DNA of 64,000 bases from Mesorhizobium xinjiangense. Its GTDB lineage: Bacteria; Pseudomonadota; Alphaproteobacteria; Rhizobiales; Rhizobiaceae. The notes beneath the pieces were generated by a model. The model was not told the origin of the DNA. It made no database searches and saw only the letters and a list, made by a program, of their open reading frames with translations. The stretch lies in contig NZ_WOAC01000014.1 in assembly GCF_009749525.1 (NCBI RefSeq), forward strand, positions 62,001 through 126,000. Direction: 5' to 3'. The position numbers were made by a program, and so were the translations under genes. This document shows, in pieces, positions 7,921 to 53,449 of the stretch; positions within the stretch are counted from its first letter, which is position 1, and every line of letters begins with the position of its first letter.

Positions 7921-7982
7921 TTTTGATTTGACGCAATTCCGGGCGGAGAACCGGCTTCCACTTCTCCTGGAATTGCTCTAGC
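7921..7982. repeat. dispersed palindromic repeat (GCAATTCC family), copy 1
   Basis: Arms GCAATTCC (7933-7940) and GGAATTGC (7969-7976) enclose an inner GGAGAA/TTCTCC pair. The unit matches, in reverse orientation, the one at 49050-49112, including the flanking ATTTGA. It lies between the two TadE-like genes. Similar elements are common in Hyphomicrobiales intergenic DNA (from memory). Confidence 0.75.
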
Positions 7983-30608: not shown

Positions 30609-32492
30609 TCAACCCTTGCCAATTGCCTTCGCCTTCTCAAGATCGGCCCACCAAAGCGCTTCCACCGGAAAGCCGTAATCCGGCTTCGGTTCCTTGAAGC
30701 CGAACATGTCCCAGAAAGCGGCCCGGTGATTCGCCGCATGCCAATTTGGAATCCAGTCGCGCCGCGCGCGCAAGACCCGGTCGAGCGCCCGCATGGCGGT
30801 GGTGAATGTGGAGCGGTCTCCGGCCTGGGCGGCAATCTCGATCAGCGCGTCGACGGCCGGGTCGCTGGTTCCGGGAAAGTTGCGCGAGCCGGAAATCTCG
30901 GCGGCGCGCGAATGAAACAGATTGGACAGCGATTCGCCGGTCGGCGTGGCGGCAAAGGCCGCCGCCATCCCGACCATGTCGAAGTCGAAATCAAGCTGGC
31001 GCGCCTGGAATTGTGCCGCATCGACAAGCCGGATCGAGGCGTCGATGCCGATGGCCCGCATATTCTCGACAAAGGGCGTGTTGGCGCGCACGAAAACCTG
31101 GTCCTGAACCAGGATCTCCACCGCCATGACCTCGCCGGCTTCGTTGCGCAGCAGGCCGTCCCGGCGCGTCCAGCCGGCTTCCGTCAAAAGGCGGGCCGCC
31201 TTGCCGAGCAGCTTGCGGTCACGGCCGGAGCCGTCCGAGACCTCCATGGTGACGGCTTCGCCGAACGCTTCGTCGGGGATTCGGCCGCGGAATTTTTCCA
31301 GGAGCGCCAGTTCCTCGGGCGACGGCATACCCTCGGCCATGTAAGGCGAACGCTCGAAGGTCGATTGCGAGCGCTCATAGGCGCCGTAGAAAAGATTCTG
31401 CCGGGTCCATTCGAAGTCGAAGCACAGGCTGATCGCGTGCCGCACGCGGGAATCGGCGAAGCGCGAACGGCGCTGATTGAGCGCCCAGGCCTGCATGATC
31501 GGGCTCTTCTCGGCCGGAAATTCGCGCTTGACCACCTTGCCGTCCCGGATCGCCGGGAAGTCGTATCCGGTCGCCCAGACCCGCGAGGTGAATTCCTGGC
31601 GATAGAGAACATTGCCCTTCTTGAAGGCTTCGAAGGCGGCCTGGCGTTCGCGATAGAATTCGATGCGGATGCGCCCGAAATTGTAAAGTCCGCGATTGAC
31701 CGGAAGGTCGCGGGCCCAATAATCCTCGACCCGGTCATACTCGATGTAGCGCCCTGCCGCGAAGCGCCCGACCTTGTAGGGTCCGGAGCCGAGCGGCGGC
31801 TCGAGCTGCGAGCTGTCGAAGGGATGCTCGGAATAGAACGCCTTCGACACGATCGGCAGCGTCGCAACGCTGAGAATGGAGCGTTGCGAATGCTCGCCCG
31901 TGAAGACGAGCCGCACGTTCCGTTCGTCCTGCGCCACGGCATCCTCGAGCTCGCGCAGGGCGATCACGAGGCTGGCATGGCCTTTGTCCTTGAAGGTCAG
32001 ATAGGTGAAGGCGACGTCGGCGGCCGTCACCGGCGTGCCGTCGTGGAAACGCGCCTCGGATCGCAAGCGGAAGACATAGCTCTTGCCGTCGTCACCGATC
32101 GTCACGCTCTCGGCGAGCAGCCCGTAAATGGCGTCGGGTTCGTCAATCGCCCGGACCATCAGGCTGTCGAAGCACATTTCCATGCGCTGCGGCGCGTCGC
32201 CGCGCCGGGCAAAGGTGTTGAGCGTGTTGAAGGTCAGCGGGTTCTGGTTGAAGACCCAGTTCGGCGGCATGAAGTTGAATGTCCCGCCCTTCGGCGCCTC
32301 CGGGCTGGCATAGTCGAAATGAGTGAAGTCGGGGCCGTATTTCAGGTCGCCGAAGGCGGACAGACCGTGCAGGGGCTTGCCTGTTTCAACGCCGGCGAAC
32401 CCCCTCGCGGGCACGACAGAAGCGGCGAGCGCACCGCCGAAAAGGGCCAGGAACCGCCGGCGCGTGAGACCATTGATCGTCGATCGAAGCAA
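30609..32492 (-). CDS. extracellular solute-binding protein, family 5 (Tat-type signal)
   Basis: A periplasmic peptide-binding lipocalin-independent component of the Yej transporter (SBP family 5, about 627 residues). The N-terminus TRRRFLALFGGALAASVVPA is a twin-arginine-type signal, unlike the Sec signal of its neighbour. Family blocks: HFDYASPEAPKGGTFN, VTAADVAFTYLTFKDKG and EPPLGSGPYKVGRF. Only two bases separate the neighbour's stop from the TTG at 32492, which I take as start; the 59 in-frame codons upstream overlap the neighbour. It resembles that neighbour throughout and may bind different peptides. Confidence 0.88.
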   Translation of the reverse strand: MLRSTINGLTRRRFLALFGGALAASVVPARGFAGVETGKPLHGLSAFGDLKYGPDFTHFDYASPEAPKGGTFNFMPPNWVFNQNPLTFNTLNTFARRGDAPQRMEMCFDSLMVRAIDEPDAIYGLLAESVTIGDDGKSYVFRLRSEARFHDGTPVTAADVAFTYLTFKDKGHASLVIALRELEDAVAQDERNVRLVFTGEHSQRSILSVATLPIVSKAFYSEHPFDSSQLEPPLGSGPYKVGRFAAGRYIEYDRVEDYWARDLPVNRGLYNFGRIRIEFYRERQAAFEAFKKGNVLYRQEFTSRVWATGYDFPAIRDGKVVKREFPAEKSPIMQAWALNQRRSRFADSRVRHAISLCFDFEWTRQNLFYGAYERSQSTFERSPYMAEGMPSPEELALLEKFRGRIPDEAFGEAVTMEVSDGSGRDRKLLGKAARLLTEAGWTRRDGLLRNEAGEVMAVEILVQDQVFVRANTPFVENMRAIGIDASIRLVDAAQFQARQLDFDFDMVGMAAAFAATPTGESLSNLFHSRAAEISGSRNFPGTSDPAVDALIEIAAQAGDRSTFTTAMRALDRVLRARRDWIPNWHAANHRAAFWDMFGFKEPKPDYGFPVEALWWADLEKAKAIGKG

Positions 32493-40476: not shown

Positions 40477-40577
40477 GGGAGGTTGGTGGTGGACGAGCCA
40501 CTCGCCAACCGGGTCAGATCCGGAAGGAAGCAGCCCTAACGAGCCACGGCACGGGTCATCGTGCCAGCCTCCCACCT
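40477..40577 (+). ncRNA. ffs: bacterial small signal recognition particle RNA (4.5S)
   Basis: The RNA that partners Ffh in co-translational membrane targeting. The conserved apical region is intact: GGTCAGATCCGGAAGGAAGC followed by AGCC carries the two internal loops bound by the Ffh M domain. The ends pair, GGGAGG (40477-40482) with CCTCCC (40568-40573), closing the long hairpin. It sits directly upstream of dnaX, as in most proteobacteria. Exact ends are inferred from pairing. Confidence 0.95.
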
Positions 40578-48128: not shown

Positions 48129-48935
48129 ATGACAGCGATTATGCAGGGCAAGCGCGGCCTGGTTATGGGTGTCGCCAACGACCATTCTATTGCCTGGGGG
48201 ATCGCCAAGGCGCTTGCCGGGCACGGCGCCGACCTTGCCTTCACCTATCAGGGCGAGGCATTCGGCCGGCGCGTCAAGCCGCTTGCCGACAAGGTCGGCG
48301 CGAAGCTGATCCTGCCGTGTGACGTCGAGGATGGCGCATCGATCGATTCGGTCTTCGAAACGCTCGGCAACGAGTGGGGCGGCCTCGATTTCATCGTTCA
48401 CGCAATCGGCTTTTCCGACAAGAACGAGCTCAAGGGCCTTTATGCCGACACGACGCGCGACAATTTCGTGCGCACGATGGTCATCTCCTGCTTCTCGTTC
48501 ACGGAAGTGGCGCGCCGGGCGGCCGCAATGATGGGCGAGGGTTCGTCCATGCTCACCCTCACCTATGCCGGCTCGGAACGCATCATGCCGAACTACAACG
48601 TCATGGGTGTCGCCAAGGCCGCGCTCGAAGCGAGCGTGCGCTATCTCGCCTATGATTTCGGTCCGCGCGGCATTCGCGTCAACGCCATCTCTGCCGGGCC
48701 TGTGCGCACGCTTGCCGGTTCGGGCGTGGCTGATGCCCGCCATATGTTCGCCTACCAGAGCCGCAACGCGCCGCTCCGGCGCACGGTCAATATCGACGAG
48801 GTCGGCAATTCGGCCTTCTACCTCCTGTCGGACCTGTCGTCAGGCGTCACCGGCGAGATCCACTATGTCGATTCGGGCTACCACATCACCTTGATGCCGA
48901 CGCTGGATGAGCTGAAGAGCTGGGAACGCGGCTAG
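48129..48935 (+). CDS. fabI: enoyl-ACP reductase (NADH)
   Basis: Carries out the last reduction of fatty-acid elongation. It is an atypical short-chain dehydrogenase: nucleotide loop GVANDHSIAWGIAKALAGHG, and Tyr and Lys in the Y-x6-K pair YNVMGVAKAALEAS, preceded by TLTYAGSERIMPN; the late block GPVRTLAGSG is usual. The 268 residues fit. The start is 48129 or four codons later. A large nested palindromic repeat begins two bases after the stop. Confidence 0.95.
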   Translation: MTAIMQGKRGLVMGVANDHSIAWGIAKALAGHGADLAFTYQGEAFGRRVKPLADKVGAKLILPCDVEDGASIDSVFETLGNEWGGLDFIVHAIGFSDKNELKGLYADTTRDNFVRTMVISCFSFTEVARRAAAMMGEGSSMLTLTYAGSERIMPNYNVMGVAKAALEASVRYLAYDFGPRGIRVNAISAGPVRTLAGSGVADARHMFAYQSRNAPLRRTVNIDEVGNSAFYLLSDLSSGVTGEIHYVDSGYHITLMPTLDELKSWERG

Positions 48936-48936
48936 C

Positions 48937-49047
48937 GCGCGTTCGCTTCAAACGGAAACGTTTGAAGCAAAGATATGCGCGCCAGATCAATATGTTGGAA
49001 CATGTACCTTTCGCTCAAACGATTCCGTTTGAGCGGGACATGTTCTA
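48937..49047. repeat. nested palindromic repeat (CAAACG family), copy 1
   Basis: Two linked hairpins: GCTTCAAACG/CGTTTGAAGC with a GAAA loop (48945-48968), then CGCTCAAACG/CGTTTGAGCG with an ATTC loop (from 49012). It is nearly identical to 53271-53386 over more than 90 bases. Its right arm is damaged: after GAGCG it reads GGACATGTTC, lacking part of the AAAGGT seen in the other copy. It directly follows fabI. Confidence 0.85.
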
Positions 49048-49049
49048 AA

Positions 49050-49112
49050 GCAATTCCAGGAGAAGTGGGAACCGGTTCTCCGTCCGGAATTGCGTCGAAA
49101 TCAAATGGTTAG
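49050..49112. repeat. dispersed palindromic repeat (GCAATTCC family), copy 2
   Basis: Arms GCAATTCC (49050-49057) and GGAATTGC (49086-49093) enclose GGAGAA and TTCTCC, and the element ends in TCAAATGGTTAGATCGG. It matches the element at 7921-7982 in opposite orientation and is joined directly to the preceding CAAACG-family repeat. The stretch up to the next gene has nothing else. Confidence 0.75.
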
Positions 49113-52850: not shown

Positions 52851-53120
52851 TCAGCGACGCAGACCGAGCTTCTTGATCAGCGTCTGGTAGCGCGCGACAT
52901 CCTTCCTCTTGAGATAGTCGAGGAGGCTGCGGCGCTGCGAGACCAGCTTGAGCAGGCCACGGCGGGAATGGTTGTCCTTGGCGTGGTCCTTGAAGTGTTC
53001 GGTCAGGTTCGTAATGCGCTCCGTCAGAATCGCCACCTGGACCTCCGGCGAACCGGTGTCACCCTTGACGGTGGCATATTCGTTCAGCAATTCCTGCTTG
53101 CGCTCGGCAGTGATCGACAT
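52851..53120 (-). CDS. rpsO: 30S ribosomal protein S15
   Basis: A 16S rRNA-binding protein of the small subunit. The 89 residues are normal; [40 protein letters not shown] and [20 protein letters not shown] are hallmarks. The ATG at 53120 has AAAGGAAAC upstream. It is separated from truB by 329 bases containing a nested palindromic repeat, so it may have its own promoter there. Confidence 0.98.
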
Positions 53121-53270
53121 CGTGGTTTCCTTTCTGTTCTATTTTCAGGAAATGGAGACGCCCACGGCCGGGATGTCGTCCAGCGGGGGCCACTCATGCA
53201 AAACGCCTATAGCGCGATGCTGCGGCGCATATAGTGGAAAATGCCGGCGATTGCCAGAAATAAATGCCAT

Positions 53271-53386
53271 GGCGCGCATTCGTTTCAAACGGAAACGTTT
53301 GAAGCAAAGATATGCGCGCCAGATCAATATGCTGGAACATGTACCTTTCGCTCAAACGATTCCGTTTGAGCGAAAGGTACATGTTC
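53271..53386. repeat. nested palindromic repeat (CAAACG family), copy 2
   Basis: The intact copy of the element after fabI, in the 329-base truB-rpsO gap, which otherwise holds nothing recognisable. Outer arms GGCGCGCAT (53271-53279) and ATGCGCGCC (53312-53320) enclose TTTCAAACG-GAAA-CGTTTGAAG (53283-53304). A second hairpin has a perfect 24-bp stem (53335-53358 with 53363-53386) and an ATTC loop. Confidence 0.88.
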
Positions 53387-53449
53387 AAGCGCGTTCGCAA
53401 AGGAAGATCGAGCAATTCGTATGGCCTTGTACTGCCAGAACAACTCTGC

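Follow-up and report, generated by a model that had tools for sequence, protein, structure and literature searches.

The gap between truB and rpsO in Mesorhizobium xinjiangense holds a large nested palindrome, which raises the question of whether it serves these genes as an RNA signal or is one copy of a mobile, non-autonomous DNA unit. We addressed this question in the window, by which we mean the whole analyzed stretch of 64,000 nucleotides, and in genome-wide comparisons. Open reading frames and profile-based names gave the minus-strand order truB, element, rpsO, pnp, and infB and rbfA presumably lie ahead of truB, as judged from their translations and position. The features that the analysis uses are the following.

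53269-53389, plus strand: window copy of the element in its whole length, as delimited by the covariance model, 127.5 bits (G000:C6:115269-115389)
53270-53321, plus strand: hairpin 1 from the fold, with an outer and an inner stem of 10 bp each, separated by a short bulged segment, and the loop GAAA
53322-53334, plus strand: linker GATCAATATGCTG, kept among copies
53335-53386, plus strand: hairpin 2 from the fold, with 24 uninterrupted pairs and the loop ATTC
53373-53379, plus strand: AAAGGTA in the right arm of hairpin 2, complementary to TACCTTT at 53342-53348; GGA in ordinary copies
48932-49048, plus strand: second copy in the window, whose right stem is imperfect and whose left TAG serves as the fabI stop codon
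53450-54436, minus strand: truB, upstream neighbor (TIGR00431)
52851-53120, minus strand: rpsO, downstream neighbor (TIGR00952), start read from sequence
53229-53257, minus strand: candidate rpsO promoter CTGGCA-17-CTATAT, on the rpsO side of the element at a distance of 11 bp

The predicted fold of positions 53261 to 53396 had an energy of -80.4 kcal/mol, compared with a mean of -33.7 (standard deviation, 3.64) for shuffled sequences; the z-score was -12.8, and none of 200 shuffles folded equally well. This fold bore out the double hairpin described in the first-pass annotation, with a GAAA loop in the first hairpin and a perfect 24-bp stem in the second. The outer stem that it had described was also present, but with a length of 10 bp rather than 9. 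At the gathering threshold, Rfam gave no match over the element; elsewhere in the window, it placed a small bacterial SRP RNA gene (RF00169) at 40478-40575.

A BLAST search with the element against its own genome returned at least 86 local matches, distributed over both strands, for the best 40 of 212 candidates. A covariance model built from 34 copies matched at least 150 copies in the same genome (all 150 of the best 150 among 2867 first-look candidates), and the scores of the matches listed ranged from 144.4 down to 63.4 bits. We read 140 distinct copies of at least 60 bits in the genomic DNA; of these, 121 were near full length and included their flanks. The 60-bit cut had reduced 144 distinct rows to 140 and 123 near-full rows to 121, and the two near-full rows removed (42.1 and 41.7 bits) were wrong-strand matches. 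The 117-bp consensus consists of CTAG, hairpin 1, the linker CAGATCAATATGCTG, hairpin 2 and CTAG. The linker pattern GAYCAAYATGCTG had 52 matches in the genome versus 0 for the reversed control; one inspected match (L018) was coding sequence outside the element family. The genome-wide count proposed in the first-pass annotation, which had named a total of two copies with none in relatives as evidence against a repeat family, thus yielded at least 150 matches, and the repeat family stands.

The copies end in a recognizable way, YTA/G...C/TAR, with the slash at the element boundary. Among the 121 near-full copies, the base before the left TAG was C in 62, T in 17, A in 6 and G in 1, so that the left ends read CTAG, TTAG, ATAG and GTAG in these numbers; the family shows YTAG rather than the end tag GTAG or CGTC given for REP/REPIN sequences in the accessible part of PMC3733652. 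After the right CTA, the base was G in 28, A in 25, T in 12 and C in 4. Of the 121 copies, 56 had TA at both ends, 103 at one or both ends and 18 at neither. There were no terminal inverted repeats (the ends GCGCGC and GAACATG differ), so the family is not a classical terminal-inverted-repeat element. Of 155 boundary TAGs, 68 closed a frame of 120 codons or more, compared with 25 of 122 other YTAG sites (Fisher p, 4e-5; frames by length), the control sites being drawn from the same loci, with some overlapping. These frames came in equal numbers from the left (34) and from the right (34).

Six joined-flank sites were compared with three congeners, and two of them, at rpoD and aat, were readable. 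At the end of rpoD, the element begins at the natural stop codon, with GACAGC TAG in this genome versus GACAGC or GACAGT followed by TGA in the congeners; the element is absent from all three, and all four genomes then have a GC-rich hairpin with a T-run. The aat frame of this genome stops at the element, two codons short of the congener end, and the element is again absent from all three congeners. The earlier suggestion of a mobile non-autonomous unit is thus supported by the at least 150 model matches and by two sites that lack the element in three of three congeners. Base-exact empty sites were absent from every congener comparison, so a TA duplication is not proven. At truB-rpsO and at fabI, the congeners differ and offered no clean empty site. 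The truB-rpsO gap (window 53121-53449) measures about 330 bp including the element in this genome, and in the three congeners the interval takes up about 2.3 kb and holds additional reading frames; because they differ by about 2.3 kb there, insertion of the window copy itself is not demonstrable. A second palindromic repeat family (CAATTCC...GGAATTG) occurs at window positions 7927-7981 and 49045-49099, the latter copy directly abutting the element copy at 48932-49048; unlike the element, this family is represented in the three congeners by many partial matches. A count of repeated flanks, considered as a sign of nested insertion into other repeats, was inflated by overlapping loci and was not used.

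From these ends, we infer that the element would insert at YTAR sites, leaving a TA at each end. The two TAs may be a target duplication, or one may come from the target and the other from the terminus of the element. With its outermost G and C, the element would make each boundary a TAG, and an insertion at a gene end would then leave a stop codon and could be tolerated.

Outside its own genome, the searches recovered weaker relatives of the family. In a BLAST search of 41 genomes at 1e-3, the own genome alone matched, with every first-look candidate scored in the three congeners, and the model likewise found no match in these congeners among the best 12 candidates per genome. Across the Rhizobiaceae, 12 of 297 genomes, the own genome included, matched the model (best 12 candidates per genome); weaker relatives of about 107 bp occurred several per genome in the genera g63 and g64, and the elements of other genera scored 33 to 51 bits. 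A family-wide BLAST search at E of 0.01 or below matched 13 of 394 genomes, all except the own genome by short partial matches. Twelve named genomes gave a single model match of 37.5 bits, in a record of Pseudaminobacter arsenicus, which on reading did not resemble the family; neither of the two Brucella genomes among them matched, and the exact linker pattern had no match in the named genomes. Against plasmid records, the element gave no BLAST match at 1e-5 and one partial match at E of 1. With a g63 element as the query, 842 places were found in 207 plasmid records (96 Sinorhizobium, 87 Rhizobium, 19 Ensifer and 5 others). Two records with rhizobial sequence carry unexpected titles, Bacillus subtilis strain SK6B4 (L137) and Dysgonomonadaceae bacterium zrk40 (plasmid CP070278.1, nearly equal in length to a Martelella lutilitoris plasmid), and both are probably mislabeled or from mixed cultures.

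When ten elements from four other genera were aligned with the window family, they revealed a common right half, CATGT..C.TT.TCGCTCAA followed by TTGAGCG.GACATG and a terminal TA, while hairpin 1 and the linker differed. The similarity lies below BLAST at 1e-5, and the covariance model (best score, 51 bits) together with the reading of the alignment suggests that the window family is related to the plasmid-borne elements of about 107 bp. The comparison also bears on the two hairpin cores, which had been called near reverse complements of each other. This holds in the window family, where both contain TCAAACG..CGTTTGA, but each core is itself palindromic and the related families show no consistent likeness; consequently, an origin of one hairpin by duplication-inversion of the other is disfavored.

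RIME1 is a multicopy unit of about 107 bp with two palindromes, reportedly named by Osteras, Stanley and Finan in 1995 as the Rhizobium-specific intergenic mosaic element. We take the repeats of about 107 bp in other Rhizobiaceae to be RIME1. The window family resembles RIME1, which is intergenic, in its two palindromes, its occurrence in the Rhizobiaceae and perhaps its position, and it has the corresponding build, with the 117-bp consensus, two hairpins and 140 copies read; the g63 and g64 relatives have the common right-half core. However, the stems of hairpin 1 and the linker differ between these RIME1-type repeats and the window family, and BLAST at 1e-5 does not connect them. The first-pass annotation had found the size and order unusual for REP sequences. 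For RIME-type repeats, however, such a size, about 117 bp, and two hairpins are ordinary, so that only the perfect 24-bp stem remains unusual. In the portions of PMC2573895 and PMC2245857 that were available, RIMEs are annotated as intergenic repeats in S. meliloti, and the former terms such rhizobial repeats sequences of unknown function. The Bru-RS1 and Bru-RS2 repeats of Brucella (103 to 105 bp, palindromic and intergenic according to the accessible text of PMC2267715) are like the window family in size class, palindromes and perhaps position, but the likeness is one of description, and the model found nothing in two Brucella genomes.

The perfect stem of the window copy is an exception within its family. 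The right hairpin of ordinary copies contains an asymmetric internal loop, with TACCTTT opposite GGGA; this pair occurred in 61 of 100 parsed rows and TGCCTTT/GGGA in 12 of 100, the counts being taken from 123 rows that include the two later removed and of which 23 did not parse (hairpin energies were likewise computed on the 123 rows). Four of the 121 copies, the window copy included, carry GAAAGG(T/C)A instead of GGGA, and no other copy in the set has a right hairpin as stable as theirs. In each of them, the segment complements the left arm of the same copy. L271 has its own left-arm variant TGCCTTT, matched by AAAGGCA in its right arm. The same rewriting was seen in other directions and places: in L256 and L028 the left arm is rewritten from the right, L277 has a private matched pair, and in genus g63 hairpin 1 of L190 and hairpin 2 of L333 are affected. 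The arm rewriting is the footprint of template-switch (quasipalindrome) correction, with 4 of 121 copies rewritten right from left and three in the reverse or an equivalent manner. Most apparent loop inversions were wrong-strand rows; one candidate was left (L288, TTTC for GAAA), and we claim nothing for it.

It could be argued that the four copies descend from one perfect master and that the imperfect copies have decayed, as they have the AAAGG(T/C)A arm in common. However, with this segment masked, each of the four was nearer to ordinary copies than to the other three, one has its own left-arm variant, and the asymmetric loop also prevails in g63 and g64. A perfect-master subfamily is therefore very improbable. 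We favor the reading in which the perfect 24-bp stem arose later, through a template switch within the hairpin during replication, with the left arm serving as the template for the right. According to the available text of PMC8794818, template-switch mutations create and mend hairpins, and a single event turns one arm into the exact complement of its partner, as here. The window family differs from the cases given there in being a bacterial interspersed repeat, in having separate rewritten copies and in showing both directions. We found no publication that joins this mechanism with rhizobia or with bacterial miniature repeats, although this does not prove its absence in print. A bolder proposal, which we put forward as doubtful, is that RIME-type elements move as single-stranded hairpins, that the asymmetric loop is the feature read by the mobilizer, and that the copies perfected by template switching, which occur in more than one genus and include the window copy, are dead ends without lineage.

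The main competing view makes the element an RNA signal, that is, a processing site, an RNase barrier or a 3'-end stabilizer selected at gene ends, including that of truB. Its very stable RNA fold and its frequent placement immediately at a stop codon are in keeping with this, as are the paired changes in the outer right stem, where six copies are altered on both sides at one pair, and several stem pairs that are G-U on the plus strand only. Paired changes can, however, also be produced by template switching, the frames that end at the element come equally from both sides, and rpoD and aat of the congeners do without it. A T-run longer than 3 followed the right end in 0 of 121 copies and the left end in 1 of 121, and no terminator was called at or near the window copy; an intrinsic terminator, with its T-run after a GC-rich hairpin, was thus rejected. 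At truB-rpsO itself, the block CTGGCA-17-CTATAT is present in all three congeners, with its first hexamer varied in the named relatives read, and is probably the rpsO promoter as judged from sequence, although a plain sigma-70 scan did not call it. If it is, the element lies outside that transcript and would be present only at the 3' end of a truB transcript. With the element at more than 100 other places, frames ending there from both sides and this candidate promoter in between, the RNA-processing role proposed for the gap is not supported, and we consider an RNA element unlikely. The element would rather be a tolerated passenger, with no role beyond that of a stable hairpin where it is transcribed. 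A separate block upstream of rpsO, CCCGCTGGACGACATCCCGGCC (window 53167-53188, minus strand), is conserved to a striking degree, from Brucella to this genus, and perhaps represents an S15 leader RNA; it had no Rfam match at the gathering threshold.

If the element is mobile DNA, its mobilizer could be sought among the RAYT (Y1) transposases, with the family as a REP/REPIN system and YTAG as its tag. The two inverted hairpin units, each with YTAG ahead when read inward, and the absence of terminal inverted repeats are compatible with such a system, and in the accessible part of PMC3733652 the TAG of GTAG REPs likewise supplies stop codons to flanking open reading frames; hairpins and an end tag are further common features. 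On the other hand, the window family is longer and has YTAG instead of GTAG. The proposed check for a TnpA-REP transposase came out negative, with no Y1_Tnp (PF01797) match in a genome listed as 100% complete and matches in 5 of 14 control genomes, which makes REP/REPIN movement quite unlikely. Transposases of the IS5 type (PF13340, 7 matches) and IS630 type (PF13358, 1 match) were rejected as partners, as no ends in the 8 loci were common with the element. The sole element match at these loci was a truncated copy beside an IS5-type transposase gene (L305, G000:C29, about 30647-31135), and the ends of that transposase read CTAA/GAG...CTC/TAAG. We infer that the copies were moved by a transposase acting in trans. 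According to the part of PMC2266754 that was available, IS711, which is associated with Bru-RS, targets YTAR and duplicates TA; this is the same target rule as the ends of the window family suggest, and we regard it as a lead and not as a test.

Overall, the window element is likely to be a RIME-type mobile DNA element that is lineage specific, high copy and non-autonomous and that carries a template-switched perfect stem. With at least 150 copies in one species and none found in three congeners, the family makes the old question of RIME-type movement in rhizobia tractable. Its rewritten stems provide repeated natural cases of template-switch correction within a bacterial repeat family, and they caution against taking paired changes in hairpins of this kind as a sure sign of selection on RNA. 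If the perfected copies are indeed dead ends, the asymmetric loop would point to the recognition site of the mobilizer, and the family would be a natural record of how frequently hairpins are rewritten during the replication of a bacterial genome.
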